This document shows positions 1,523 through 25,396 of a stretch of DNA of 27,656 nt, piece after piece. The DNA comes from a virus. The number at the start of each line of letters is the position of its first letter. Position 1 is the first letter of the stretch. The stretch spans positions 1 to 27,656 of IMG/VR virus record IMGVR_UViG_3300042934_000505, one strand, 5' to 3'. Under the pieces are notes generated by a model. The model saw nothing but the letters and a program-made list of their open reading frames with translations, did no database searches and was not told the DNA's origin. A program made the translations under genes and the position numbers.

Positions 1523-1868
1523 ACTGGCCCAACTGCCTGGGGTGTTGGATCTCCGCATCTACCGGGGTGATGACTCGAACTTTCAGGTGACGATGACGGA
1601 TACGGAGTCGGGTGACCCGTTGGTGTTGCCGACGACGGGGTGGCGTGCACAGGTGCGTCTCGACACGGCTTCGACGAGCGAGATTCTGTTTTCGTTGACG
1701 GTGGAAGCGTCGGATGCTGCGACGGGTGTCATCTCCCTGTCGATTGTGGGGGCTGATACTGCGGAGCTCGAGGGTCCGGTGTTCTGGGATTTGGAGAACA
1801 CGGATCTGGACCGCACGTATCTGGCGGGGAAGATTCGCCTGTCGGGGCAGGTGAGCCGCGATGAGTGA
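1515..1868 (+). CDS. Small beta-rich tail-associated protein
   Basis: 117 residues. The ATG at 1515 overlaps the fibre gene by 8 bases. The protein is almost all predicted beta strand: an N-terminal [13 protein letters not shown] stretch, a central [11 protein letters not shown] strand and a C-terminal [15 protein letters not shown] strand. This order resembles the BppU-type N-terminal domains and small minor tail proteins found between fibre genes in Gram-positive phages. That link is from memory and moderate. No signal peptide or membrane segment. Its position between two fibre-type genes supports a baseplate or tail-tip adaptor role. Confidence 0.65.
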
Positions 1869-2340
1869 TATCAGCGTTTCGGTTGTCGCTCAGCCGGCGA
1901 TCACGGTTGGTGTCACACCGACTGGGGCCACGGGTCCGCAGGGTGAGCCTGGTGCTACTGGTGCGACCGGCCCGGCTGGTGCGACGGGCGCTACGGGTCC
2001 TGCTGGACCTCAGGGTGACCCGGGTGCTGATGGTGCCACTGGTGCGGCGGGTGCAACCGGACCCCAGGGTGAGCCTGGGGAGACCGGGCCGCAGGGTCCA
2101 GCGGGTGACACTGGCGCGACGGGGGCGACTGGTCCTGCTGGGCCTGAGGGTCCGCAGGGGCCGGCCGGTGAGGACGGTGGTGACCTGTCTGTTGTGGCAG
2201 GGTCTGCGAACAACCCGCACACCACGCAGGGCGCTACACGCAATGCGTCACTTCCGAAGAACCACTGGCGTTACGCAGGCACCGAAGGTGTGGACGACCC
2301 CACTAACTGGGTCGACGGCGACGAATGGATCACAGTATGA
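1861..2340 (+). CDS. Collagen-like minor tail protein
   Basis: 159 residues, overlapping the preceding gene by 8 bases. After about 20 N-terminal residues, roughly residues 21-105 are Gly-X-Y triplets of the [16 protein letters not shown] type, the signature of a collagen-like triple helix. The C-terminal 50 residues are globular and include [21 protein letters not shown]. Collagen-like stalks are common in fibres of phages of Gram-positive hosts and form trimeric rods. Other frames are also open across this stretch because the repeat is GC-rich, but only this frame gives a meaningful protein. It probably forms part of the adsorption apparatus with its neighbours. Confidence 0.85.
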
Positions 2341-9659: not shown

Positions 9660-9881
9660 TTGAACGAACCACGCGCAAGCACCAGCGGACCCGACGCGGC
9701 AAGCCCAGATACCGTCCCCCAGACCCCGGGACATATCATCTGCGGAGCCGGAGCCGCCTGCGAACAGATCTGCCCAGTCATGGCGATGGGGCGATCTTGC
9801 CCCGGGCTCATGCAGCTCATGGAAGAGCTCGAAGCGCTCAGTCACCCTTGGTTGGCACCGACCGGGTCGCTCGTGCATTAG
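9660..9881 (+). CDS. Possible small Cys-containing protein (73 aa)
   Basis: TTG start with GGGGG five to six bases upstream. The product has an Ser/Pro/Asp-rich N-terminus, then four Cys in residues 28-47 (CGAGAACEQIC, later SCPGL) that could bind a metal, and a short helix LMQLMEELEALSH. Third codon positions are mostly G or C, in line with coding. It runs toward the repressor gene and overlaps its 3' end by 44 bases. It could be real or chance; the reverse strand here has no better ORF apart from the repressor end. Confidence 0.4.
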   Translation: MNEPRASTSGPDAASPDTVPQTPGHIICGAGAACEQICPVMAMGRSCPGLMQLMEELEALSHPWLAPTGSLVH

Positions 9882-10158
9882 CGAAGAACTGTTCCGGGGT
9901 GACCCCGAGAAGAACGATGGCCCGCAGCAGGAAGTCGGCCGGCATCTCGCGTTCACCCCGGAAGTACCGCCCAACAGTGTTGTCGGACTCGTTCATGGCG
10001 TCGGAGAACTTCCCTCGAGTGCCGTACACGTCGAGGGCTTCCTTCTTTAGTTCGCGCACCACGTCAGCGGTGGTCAGAGGCGCGTCATCCACGGCGTCGA
10101 TACTAGCCGTTCCGGTTGCGAGAAACGTGGCGGAAGCGGCCTTTTGGGTCTCTTTCAT
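9838..10158 (-). CDS. HTH (Cro/C1-like) repressor candidate
   Basis: 106 residues. After a flexible Ala/Thr-rich N-terminus (1-30), residues about 31-100 form a lambda-repressor-like domain: helix LTTADVVRELKKEALDVYG, then FSDAMNESDNTVGRYFRGER as the HTH with recognition helix, then a helical FLLRAIVLLGVTPEQFFANA close. The FLLRAIVLLGVTPEQFF ending is typical of XRE-type regulators. It is transcribed away from the early promoter at 10234, the normal arrangement for an immunity repressor that controls lytic genes. It is short for a full C1 with a cleavage or dimerisation domain. Confidence 0.75.
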   Translation of the reverse strand: MKETQKAASATFLATGTASIDAVDDAPLTTADVVRELKKEALDVYGTRGKFSDAMNESDNTVGRYFRGEREMPADFLLRAIVLLGVTPEQFFANARATRSVPTKGD

Positions 10159-10161
10159 GTC

Positions 10162-10236
10162 CCGTCAGAGACGGCAGGTGGCCGTCTGATACATCGATGT
10201 GGCCAAAAGGTTGCGCGATATTGCCGAAAAGGGTTG
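10162..10236. promoter_or_regulatory. Putative operator region between repressor and early promoter
   Basis: This 75-bp stretch contains CCGTC-AGA-GACGG (10162-10174), the palindrome ACATCGATGT (10191-10200), and a direct repeat GCC(G)AAAAGG(G)TTG at 10202-10213 and 10223-10236, about two helical turns apart. The second copy overlaps the early -35 box. Likely binding sites for the divergent regulators. Confidence 0.55.
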
Positions 10237-10263
10237 ACGTGTTGCCATATGGGTATCTAGACT
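10234..10263 (+). promoter_or_regulatory. Early rightward promoter, leaderless
   Basis: TTGACG (10234-10239), an 18-base spacer containing CCATATGG, and TAGACT (10258-10263). The ATG at 10270 is seven bases after the -10 box and has only CCAGG upstream, so the first early gene is probably read from a leaderless mRNA. Confidence 0.7.
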
Positions 10264-10269
10264 CCAGGT

Positions 10270-10503
10270 ATGGCAACCAACACACCCCTCGCAGACGGCG
10301 AAGCAGCCGCGCGAGTCTTGCGGGTACTCGAGACCGAGGGCCGCAAGTTCTCATGGTTGGCCGACGCGTCTGGTATCGCACGGTCGACGCTGCGACACCA
10401 GCTCAAGGTCAAGCCTGAAGCGCTGACCGTCAAGAACTTCCTCCGCATCGCTGCCGCACTCGACCGGCCCGTTGAGGCCCTTATCGGGGAGCGTGCAGCA
10501 TGA
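10270..10503 (+). CDS. HTH regulator, first gene of early operon (Cro-like)
   Basis: 77 residues from a leaderless ATG. The middle is a clear helix-turn-helix of the XRE type: EGRKFSWLADASGIARSTLR (residues about 24-43), with LADASGIARSTLRHQLK as the turn and recognition helix, then helices VKNFLRIAAALDRPVEALIG. It is divergent from the repressor-like gene at 9838 and the first gene read from the early promoter, the position of a Cro or of an immunity repressor in some actinophages. Which of the two proteins maintains lysogeny cannot be decided from sequence. Confidence 0.75.
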   Translation: MATNTPLADGEAAARVLRVLETEGRKFSWLADASGIARSTLRHQLKVKPEALTVKNFLRIAAALDRPVEALIGERAA

Positions 10504-23140: not shown

Positions 23141-23307
23141 GCAAGAAGCCGAAGCGTGATCCGATCCCGGATGGTGTTCGTGAGGAGGCCCGTTCGTCGT
23201 GGACGTGTGCGTTCTGGTGTGACCGGCCGATGGTGGGTACTGCACGGGATGTGGACGGGTCTGTTTTGCCGTCGTGTGGGTTGAAGGGACACGGGAAACC
23301 ACTATGA
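23137..23307 (+). CDS. Small hypothetical protein (56 aa)
   Basis: ATGA coupling at both ends. It starts with a basic segment (SKKPKRDPIPDGVREEARSS), then WTCAFWC, a VGTARDVDGSVLPSCG and a basic end. Three Cys could bind zinc. Coupled between the methyltransferase and a larger unknown protein. No known family. Confidence 0.55.
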   Translation: MSKKPKRDPIPDGVREEARSSWTCAFWCDRPMVGTARDVDGSVLPSCGLKGHGKPL

Positions 23308-23861
23308 CCGAAGGCGACGTCGGCTATCTGAGCGAGGAGCAGTTCAACCGGTTCGGTTGGGCCATGCACCACTCCCGCGACCTCGTCAGTTGGTTGCGGG
23401 TCGCCGGGTACATCAAGTCCGCTGACGCTGATGTGACCGTCGCCACCACACGTGACGGTCACATCGGCCTCCCACCCACATGGTTGGCCGCTGACGCCAT
23501 CTCGAGGCTTCTGTATGAGTTGAACGGGTTTCGGGAGCTCGAGGACGCCGCCAACGACATCCACGGCGCCGACCTCGCCAGTGTCTTCACCCGCGAGGTG
23601 GAGACCGCACGTGCCCGGTGGCCGTACGAGGACCGCGCCCACTATGTGCAGTGGATTCGCTGCCCCGCATGCTCACACATGTCACTCCGGTACCACCCGC
23701 CAAGGTTCGACGGGGACCGGATCACCGTGAAGTGCATGCTCTGCCAACACGTCGCCGAAGAGGACACGTTCTCTGCTGCGGCCATGCTTCAGGAGATGGA
23801 ACTTGCGGGACGACTGGGTGACGATCAAACAGGCGATGGCCCGAGTGAGGCGATCGCGTAG
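23304..23861 (+). CDS. Hypothetical protein with C-terminal zinc ribbon (185 aa)
   Basis: ATGA start. Helical first 130 residues (LVSWLRVAGYIKSADADVTV, ISRLLYELNGFRELEDAAND), then a CPACSHMSLRYHPPRFDGDR zinc knuckle and KCMLCQHVAEEDTF that completes it (two C-x2-C pairs). The exact CPAC...SLRYHPPRFDGDR...VKC run is one I recall from other actinophage proteins, but no function is known. It is coupled to the HTH gene downstream, which suggests a regulatory pair. Confidence 0.65.
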   Translation: MTEGDVGYLSEEQFNRFGWAMHHSRDLVSWLRVAGYIKSADADVTVATTRDGHIGLPPTWLAADAISRLLYELNGFRELEDAANDIHGADLASVFTREVETARARWPYEDRAHYVQWIRCPACSHMSLRYHPPRFDGDRITVKCMLCQHVAEEDTFSAAAMLQEMELAGRLGDDQTGDGPSEAIA

Positions 23862-23991
23862 CACCATCTACCAGTGGATCGACGGGGGGAAGGTGCGAAC
23901 CATGCGACCGCTCCGCGTTCTGTGGGTCAACCTCCCGGATCTTCTCACCGCCGACGCCACGACCAGACCAGGCCGACCGAGAAAGGAATGA
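23803..23991 (+). CDS. HTH protein (excisionase/MerR-like), TTG start
   Basis: 62 residues. TTG 23803 has AGGAG seven bases upstream and overlaps the previous gene by 59 bases. DDWVTIKQAMARVRRSRSTI plus YQWIDGGKVRTMRPLRVLWV is a clear HTH_17/MerR-like domain (helix, turn, SRSTIYQWI, wing), with a basic end GRPRKE. It may be the regulator that acts on the promoter and inverted repeat directly downstream (24003-24039). Confidence 0.65.
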   Translation: MRDDWVTIKQAMARVRRSRSTIYQWIDGGKVRTMRPLRVLWVNLPDLLTADATTRPGRPRKE

Positions 23992-24002
23992 AACTCGCCG
24001 TC

Positions 24003-24039
24003 AGTTTTGGTTGACAAAACTCCGGAAACCCTGTACAGT
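24003..24039 (+). promoter_or_regulatory. Strong regulated promoter with inverted repeat over the -35 box
   Basis: TTGACA (24011-24016), a 17-base spacer and TACAGT (24034-24039) are the closest match to consensus in the window. A perfect 7-5-7 inverted repeat, AGTTTTG-GTTGA-CAAAACT (24003-24021), covers the -35 box, an ideal repressor site. The ATG at 24048 is eight bases after the -10 box. Confidence 0.8.
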
Positions 24040-24047
24040 TCGTACTG

Positions 24048-24149
24048 ATGGTGGATTCGTATGTCCGCCCACCAACGCCACCAACCGATCCGGTTCCGGT
24101 GGCGTTTCGCATTCTCCCCGCCGAGCGACTGAGTTACCACCGCCAATGA
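24048..24149 (+). CDS. Leaderless Pro/Thr-rich small ORF (33 aa) overlapping hairpins
   Basis: ATG at the predicted transcription start. The product begins MVDSYVRPPTPPTDPVPVAF and ends in TGA at 24147. Codons 7-17 are mostly Pro and Thr. The message can form TGGTGG/CCACCA (24049-24054 with 24069-24074), then a stable hairpin AACGCCACC/GGTGGCGTT (24074-24082 with 24098-24106) with an inner AACC/GGTT stem. It could be a leader peptide controlling read-through by ribosome position, or an unstable micropeptide. Followed by 195 bases without a gene. Confidence 0.5.
   Translation: MVDSYVRPPTPPTDPVPVAFRILPAERLSYHRQ
24074..24106 (+). terminator. Possible attenuator hairpin inside the leader ORF
   Basis: Nine-bp stem (24074-24082 with 24098-24106), CC bulge, four-bp inner stem (24083-24086 with 24092-24095). 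The GTTTCGCATTCT that follows is only moderately T-rich, so it is better called attenuator-like than a strong terminator. Confidence 0.45.
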
Positions 24150-24344
24150 CGGGTTCGAGAAGGCCGGCACTGTAGTCGGCCGCATCCACAAACACGGTTG
24201 TTAGCCGCGATCGCTACCCGCGCTGACCGTCAAACGCCCAGAGCCAGCGCTACCCAGCGGCTGCGGCGGGCACCTTCACTTTCCCTGTGCACGCGCCCCT
24301 GCGTAATCCGGGGGGAGTGTGCACCCAACCCATTGGGAGCGACC
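24150..24344 (+). other. 195-base untranslated stretch with two hairpins
   Basis: No gene seen. A GGCCG/CGGCC stem (24162-24166 with 24177-24181) and a GTGCAC/GTGCAC stem (24287-24292 with 24319-24324) with an inner CCCC/GGGG occur. The second ends 20 bases before the next ATG, which has GGGAGC as ribosome binding site. Confidence 0.5.
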
Positions 24345-24575
24345 ATGGGCCTGAAAACTGCCGCTGTGACCGTTGACCAGAAGAAGCCCGGACCCCGATG
24401 TGGGATGGGTGTGATCCTTGCCGGCCTGGAAATTGAAGACCTCGAGTATTTCGAGGATATGAAACGTGAGGGACGCACGGGTACGTACATTGCTGACGTG
24501 TTCCGTGAGGACGGGTATGACGTGTCCGAGTTCATGGTGCGTCGCCATAATGCGGGGCGCTGCTCATGTCGCTGA
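24345..24575 (+). CDS. Hypothetical protein (76 aa)
   Basis: ATG 24345 after GGGAGC. Contains GLKTAAVTVDQKKPGPRCGM, a helix LAGLEIEDLEYFEDMKREGR, then YIADVFREDGYDVSEFMVRR and HNAGRCSC. The helix-turn-helix-like YIADVFREDGYDVSEFMVRRH could be a DNA-binding element. It overlaps the exonuclease gene by 10 bases. No known family. Confidence 0.6.
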   Translation: MGLKTAAVTVDQKKPGPRCGMGVILAGLEIEDLEYFEDMKREGRTGTYIADVFREDGYDVSEFMVRRHNAGRCSCR

Positions 24576-25396
24576 GAGCGGCGGGCGCCGCGCTGAACCC
24601 GGCAGTCCGTAACCGTATCCTCATCCTTGACGTGGAACGTGTCTCTGGTGTTTCGGAGCAGCAGTGGTGGGACCGGGGTGACCTGAAGAACCGGTACATC
24701 CACCACGAAACGGTGGTCCGGGAGCCTCGCACGACGATCGTGTGTGCGAAGTGGTACGACTCACCTGACGTTCTCCGGTTCGCCGAATGGGACAAGGGCG
24801 GGCGTGGACCGTTCCTCCGCGAAGTTCACTCCCTCATGGGCATGGCCGACATCATCGTCGGCCACAACCTCGACGGAGCTGACGTTCCGTGGTTGAAGGG
24901 TGACTTCTACTTCCCGAAGATCGGGCACAAGCACCGCCCGTCCCTTCCACCGCTTCCCCCGTTCAAGACTGTCGACACACTCAAGGTGGCTAGGCAGTTC
25001 AGGACAGGGGTGCAGTTCAAGTCCCTCGACGCCCTGTGCCAGATCATCGGCATCCCGGCGAAGACCGACGCTTACGACCGTGAAGCGATGAATCGTGCTG
25101 TCGCTGGGTCTGTGGAGGACCGGGAACGTCTCACCGAGTATTGTGCCGGCGACGTCATCGCCACACAGGGTCTCTACGACGCTCTCCGACCCCACATCAA
25201 GAACCACCCGGCACTGTTCGTCGACGGCCAGTCCCGCCTCGACACTTGCCGTGCGTGTGGTGGGGAGACGAAGCCGATCGCTAAGCGGTTCATCGCGGAC
25301 GTGTTCACCTACTCGATGCAACGCTGCGTCTCCTGTGGGTGGCACGGTCGCCTGTCGATCGAACCGGAACGCATGTCCATGGTCAGGGGCGTCTGA
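24566..25396 (+). CDS. DEDD-type 3'-5' exonuclease (RNase H-like)
   Basis: 276 residues. Exo I: RNRILILDVERVSG (D-x-E). Exo II: MADIIVGHNLDGADVPWLKG (N and D). Exo III: LTEYCAGDVIATQGLYDALR (Y-x3-D), as in DnaQ/DNA polymerase B proofreading domains of the DEDDy type. A C-terminal zinc element, CRACGGETK and CVSCGWHG, follows. No polymerase domain is present, so it may act as a stand-alone exonuclease or as a DNA-processing factor. A cut site or partner is unknown. Confidence 0.8.
   Translation: MSLRAAGAALNPAVRNRILILDVERVSGVSEQQWWDRGDLKNRYIHHETVVREPRTTIVCAKWYDSPDVLRFAEWDKGGRGPFLREVHSLMGMADIIVGHNLDGADVPWLKGDFYFPKIGHKHRPSLPPLPPFKTVDTLKVARQFRTGVQFKSLDALCQIIGIPAKTDAYDREAMNRAVAGSVEDRERLTEYCAGDVIATQGLYDALRPHIKNHPALFVDGQSRLDTCRACGGETKPIAKRFIADVFTYSMQRCVSCGWHGRLSIEPERMSMVRGV

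Follow-up and report, generated by a model that had tools for sequence, protein, structure and literature searches.

We describe here a control cassette, probably serving the late genes of a temperate phage of soil actinobacteria, in which a strong promoter is followed by a terminator-like hairpin and a long untranslated leader. This architecture is conserved in all 17 cassettes compared, and the hairpin is under selection. The analysed stretch of DNA, hereafter called the window, is the virus record IMGVR_UViG_3300042934_000505 (27,656 bases), which ends before terL; the other 16 cassettes are from relatives. We give even chances to the reading that a late promoter is coupled to a proximal terminator that is overcome by antitermination, in the style of lambda PR'/tR' or of Pseudomonas aeruginosa AlpA. 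The features of the window to which we refer are as follows.

23304–23861, + strand: DUF7341/DUF7340-like protein (phrog_1467 at 3e-5) with four conserved zinc-ligand cysteines, a candidate trans factor
23803–23991, + strand: 62-aa helix-turn-helix (HTH) gene whose end lies shortly upstream of the promoter, HTH_17-like at a score below the Pfam cut-off
24000–24015, no strand: inverted repeat GTCAG-N6-TTGAC from sequence comparison, to which the HTH protein may bind
24003–24021, no strand: dyad AGTTTTG-GTTGA-CAAAACT of the first-pass annotation, present as a single exact copy in the window, its arms not preserved in L212, L213 and L011
24011–24039, + strand: promoter TTGACA (24011–24016), 17-nt spacer and TACAGT (24034–24039), 10/12 consensus, its position kept in 16 relatives with differing sequences
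24046–24048, + strand: transcription start predicted from the sequence (±2 nt), 6–8 nt past the -10 box
24048–24149, + strand: 33-codon ORF (ATG 24048, TGA 24147–24149), probably non-functional
24050–24069, + strand: 5' hairpin GGTGGAT/GTCCGCC predicted by folding, with a TGAAC/GTTCA hairpin instead in L212, L213 and L217
24074–24113, + strand: promoter-proximal terminator-like hairpin with the T-rich tail TTTCGCATT, with counterparts in 16 relatives
24114–24344, + strand: untranslated leader starting from CTCCCCG, with a hairpin at 24162–24181 that has a CTG/CAG loop
24311–24344, + strand: 34-nt block directly upstream of the start codon, with the same sequence in 14 viral contigs
24345–24575, + strand: 76-aa gene, the first in the operon of the window
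24566–25396, + strand: DnaQ-like exonuclease (phrog_403 at 5e-62)

The first relatives were found by searching with the exonuclease, and more were added via the HTH protein, the window hairpin and the 34-nt block; most cassettes stem from two metagenomes and, being related, are not independent of each other, while the L008 contig seems to originate from the genome of an isolate. The promoter pattern GGTTGACAAAAC was abandoned as a search key of its own, as it retrieved mostly unrelated promoters. At the loci obtained with the exonuclease, DNA similarity to the window starts only downstream of the hairpin; the region upstream of it is nonetheless similarly built. In 17 out of 17 cassettes we found the same order: a promoter, a terminator-like hairpin within the first ~70 nt, the motif CTCCC(G/C)G, an untranslated leader of 170–315 nt and then the late region. 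Where terL was found (contigs L005, L006, L007 and L012), it lies 4–5 kb downstream, a position fitting a late promoter of the Q/AlpA type, so that the cassette promoter is the last one found before the late genes.

Within this common layout, promoters and terminators are combined independently of each other. L215 and L221 have one terminator behind different promoters, while L212 and L217 share a 5' hairpin and then continue into different terminators. The first gene also varies among the cassettes, and the next large ORF in L212 codes for a 419-aa protein in place of the exonuclease. The module is thus not specific to the exonuclease, and the first-pass annotation, which had it control the exonuclease operon, was too narrow since the same module precedes other first genes. 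The 419-aa ORF (L212, 3671–4930) resembles a metallophosphoesterase when inspected by eye. In F1 mycobacteriophages (e.g. L026, L030 and L053), a DnaQ-like exonuclease gene likewise comes after a small gene, there without the promoter-leader module.

A search of genome contigs yielded two nocardioidal relatives, L085 and L086; in the latter, which holds a prophage region of Nocardioides phosphati, a terminator-like hairpin is present, but a comparable leader is absent. The matches comprised a Marmoricola bin, Nocardioides phosphati and two Mycolicibacterium genomes. The hosts are therefore probably nocardioidal actinobacteria, with the Mycolicibacterium matches leaving other hosts possible. 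Elsewhere in the window (1861–2340), a tail-region protein with collagen-like Gly-X-Y repeats is encoded.

The promoter of the window begins 20 nt past the end of the HTH gene. The strong promoter recognised in the first reading is supported as one of sigma70 type that is likely under the control of a regulator. Candidates for a -10-like pause element in the first transcribed bases, read by eye, are non-uniform: TAGGTT in L016 and L216, CAGGTT in L008 and GATGGT in the window.

The strong hairpin that follows (24074–24106) has the 9-bp stem described before (24074–24082/24098–24106) with a 5-bp stem on top, and the T tract TTTCGCATT behind it is weak in the window. The whole leader folds with -30.6 kcal/mol (z -3.8), a stability reached by none of 200 shuffles. 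In each of the first ten cassettes, a stem of 7–12 pairs with a T-rich tail lies at most 67 nt from the predicted start and is rarely matched in dinucleotide shuffles (p ≤ 0.027 each; Fisher 9e-11); when windows drawn at random from these genomes serve as the background and each unrelated hairpin is represented by a single cassette, the Fisher value is 3e-7. The seven further cassettes score similarly, the weakest being L217 (21/300) and L224 (36/300, with a poor T tract), and nearly all cassettes have a T-rich tail behind the hairpin. In the group of GGTCG hairpins (L003, L007, L008, L215, L221 and L224), all 42 cells are paired and two pairs have changed on both sides (A-U/C-G/G-C and C-G/U-A); the covariation score was reached by 0 of 500 shuffles and was lost when the partner was slid. 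Judged by its sequence, the hairpin is a selected, terminator-like element located, as for an intrinsic terminator, between promoter and first gene. The earlier description of an attenuator-like hairpin ahead of the operon is in this respect supported by sequence, conservation and compensatory changes, and we infer that the hairpin stops transcription.

Promoter, 5' hairpin and terminator form a compact unit with a strong fold, which might also have a trans-acting small RNA of ~60 nt as its main product, similar to the 6S RNA of lambda. We regard this as improbable: the sequence is freely swapped among close relatives, which a trans RNA with a fixed target would resist, and the conserved leader sits past the terminator.

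Could a translating ribosome decide on read-through? The first-pass annotation had proposed that the RNA starts at the ATG of a leaderless, Pro/Thr-rich ORF and that ribosome progress over the Pro codons selects between two stems competing for base 24074. The 33-codon ORF indeed exists and its ATG lies at about +2 of the predicted start; 'leaderless', however, is an overstatement, as the promoter fixes the start only to within ±2 nt. The two stems do share one base, but both form together (-28.2 compared to -30.6 kcal/mol), which led us to reject their competition. We found no strong alternative antiterminator, the pairing tested, which would break the terminator, reaching -14.9 compared to -30.6 kcal/mol (about 16 weaker). 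The mutually exclusive terminator and antiterminator of a leader-peptide system are thus replaced here by coexisting stems.

The ORF itself is not conserved. In addition to the window, ATG GTG stands at the predicted start of L212, L213 and L217, three of the four relatives closest to it in their promoter; the ORFs comprise 33 codons in the window, 39 in L212 and in L213, and 60 in L217. The remaining 13 of the 17 cassettes, although built alike, lack an ATG ORF at this position. In shuffles of the region, a random ATG opened at least 33 codons in 30% of cases. The Pro codons come from CCACC repeats in the arms of the hairpin, and the Pro-rich translation is common to the window and L212/L213 because their terminator is identical. 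Before the terminator hairpin, the peptide is replaced (DSYVR in the window versus VNCVHPV in L212/L213) while a 5' hairpin persists, and just past the hairpin the frame is lost via a 1-nt indel (CATTCTCC versus CATCTCC). When conservation of ORF and stem is compared, it is hence the hairpin that is kept. Instead of a conserved short ORF with a codon run, we found 13 cassettes without the ORF and four in which it is unstable.

Attenuation by a leaderless Pro-rich peptide is consistent with the four ATG GTG starts, with the differences between window and L212/L213 before the hairpin, which comprise whole codons, and with leaderless short-ORF attenuation in mycobacteria (Canestrari 2020, as cited in PMC9031893). 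As far as that citation goes, these polycysteine attenuators likewise carry an ATG at the RNA 5' end (here predicted) of an operon leader; they act on translation via Cys codons, whereas here the ORF is unconserved and the codon run is not kept. Moreover, the first genes of our cassettes vary and none is proline-linked. Given the ORFs expected by chance, the unconserved peptide and the non-competing stems, we rejected control by Pro codons and consider it very improbable. The expectation that such a mechanism would be new in a phage needs tempering, as related precedents are known in these mycobacterial attenuators and in the leader termination signal of mycobacteriophage Ms6 discussed below.

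If not a ribosome, what would act at the promoter? The dyad over the -35 box was confirmed in its sequence and in being a single copy; against shuffles, however, it is marginal (p = 0.048), and the closest relatives have not preserved it. In L212, just 4 of 7 arm pairs remain, although the HTH protein there is 97% identical, and we consequently rejected the dyad as a conserved operator. The exact 19-bp dyad AGTTTTGGTTGACAAAACT was also seen in the viral contigs L210 and L211. The repressor and Cro of the window (9838–10503), L006 and L016 are 96–97% identical, while their late control cassettes are entirely different, including the palindromes, of which each genome has one copy. The late palindromes are thus not read by the immunity repressor, and, together with its single copy, this excluded the dyad as an operator of that repressor.

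A second element, GTCAA-N6/7-TTGAC, recurs in L212, L213 and L217, with the left arm reading GTCAG in the window and GTAAA in L011; in GTCAA-N6/7-TTGACA, the right arm is the -35 box. All cassettes whose promoter is of the GGTTGACA form have a relative of the HTH gene adjoining it (5/5, versus 0/12 of the others), a count from related phages that does not give a true probability. Taken jointly, palindromes at the -35 box or in the spacer are enriched (p = 5e-4); individually, they are modest. The matching pair of HTH gene and predicted operator in all five cassettes speaks for the main rival to antitermination, a plain repressor-operated promoter whose hairpin is a 5' stabiliser or an unregulated partial terminator, and a repressor alone could indeed time expression. 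On the other hand, the T-rich tail in nearly every cassette would be needless for 5' stabilisation, and the long leader is present in all of them. We rate this rival as possible, though doubtful; a constitutive partial terminator that only tunes the level is equally compatible with the sequence.

Within the leader, one hairpin pairs across seven distinct leader types in 45 of 49 cells, a value reached by 6 of 5040 permutations of the arms; the pairs were counted on a hand alignment (MAFFT misplaced gaps in short hairpins). Overall covariation of the leader is weak, and a search of Rfam gave no match at gathering scores and only chance-level hits below them, hence no known RNA family could be assigned. 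With its presence in all cassettes and its widely paired hairpin, the structured leader might itself be an antitermination element for terminators further downstream, like the put RNA of HK022. Following the first hairpin, it cannot act on it, however, and together with the weak covariation, the Rfam result and the alignment by hand, this makes it very improbable. At the end of the leader, the 34-nt block GGGGGAG...GAGCGACC precedes different first genes and is likely a recombination joint combined with a ribosome-binding module. Searching the viral contigs with the small gene retrieved near copies only.

We now return to the reading in which antitermination carries the polymerase past a terminator close to the late promoter. 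Host RNA polymerase would start at about 24047, make an RNA of ~60 nt and tend to halt at the hairpin. To express what lies beyond it (in the window, the small gene and the exonuclease; in relatives, HNH and terminase genes further downstream), the polymerase would have to read through the terminator and pass the ~230-nt structured leader. The site at the -35 box would be suitably placed for a promoter-bound regulator or for an antiterminator loaded onto the polymerase as in the case of lambda Q and AlpA, and we infer that read-through is regulated by a phage protein.

Q of lambda and phage 21, AlpA and Caulobacter GafZ load at promoter elements between -35 and -10, join RNA polymerase and bypass downstream terminators before or within the operon (PMC6606751, PMC7969949, PMC9371919, PMC11150451). 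The cassette appears to fit in the place of its promoter and in its terminator-like hairpin, and its predicted binding element may fit as well. As in PR'-tR' of lambda and phage 21, a late promoter with a (here candidate) binding element is followed by an early terminator before the first gene, and the sequences are diverse. In contrast to these systems, the cassettes have palindromes where phage 21 has a direct repeat, their leader is long and conserved, pause-like bases are non-uniform and a Q homologue was not found. PalpB-tB of P. aeruginosa, on which AlpA acts, likewise combines a promoter element with an intrinsic terminator before the first gene, in another host and with another protein; AlpA is unrelated in sequence to Q, so that the same logic arises with unrelated proteins. 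Among actinophages, the Ms6 lysis-gene leader RNA has a termination signal, judging from the title of Garcia 2002 as cited in PMC3111421. By that title, promoter and leader termination signal are arranged as in our cassettes, although the Ms6 leader drives lysis genes.

Which protein might mediate read-through? A relative of the DUF7341/DUF7340 zinc-ribbon protein lies within about 2 kb upstream in 10/10 contigs examined, with CxxC...CxxC invariant. Its subtype tracks the promoter group of the window; elsewhere, near-identical copies precede different palindromes, and the zinc protein can thus not be the sole specificity factor. Its AlphaFold model was poor (pLDDT 66) and gave no Foldseek match in the PDB that would support a Q fold. 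The 62-aa HTH protein looks too short for a Q-type nozzle. We found neither a Q homologue nor an AlpA-like protein in this material, which says little as Q, AlpA and GafZ share no sequence similarity with each other. Tentatively, and with rather low confidence, the zinc or the HTH protein may represent a new class of promoter-loaded late antiterminators of actinophages, acting on exchangeable promoter-terminator cassettes whose structured leader is conserved.

To our knowledge, the way in which actinobacterial phages switch on their late genes is largely unknown. The 17 cassettes, which share a layout while exchanging their parts freely, offer a direct and testable place to seek such a switch and its protein. 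They also show that a DNA control module is exchanged among phages irrespective of the genes placed behind it.
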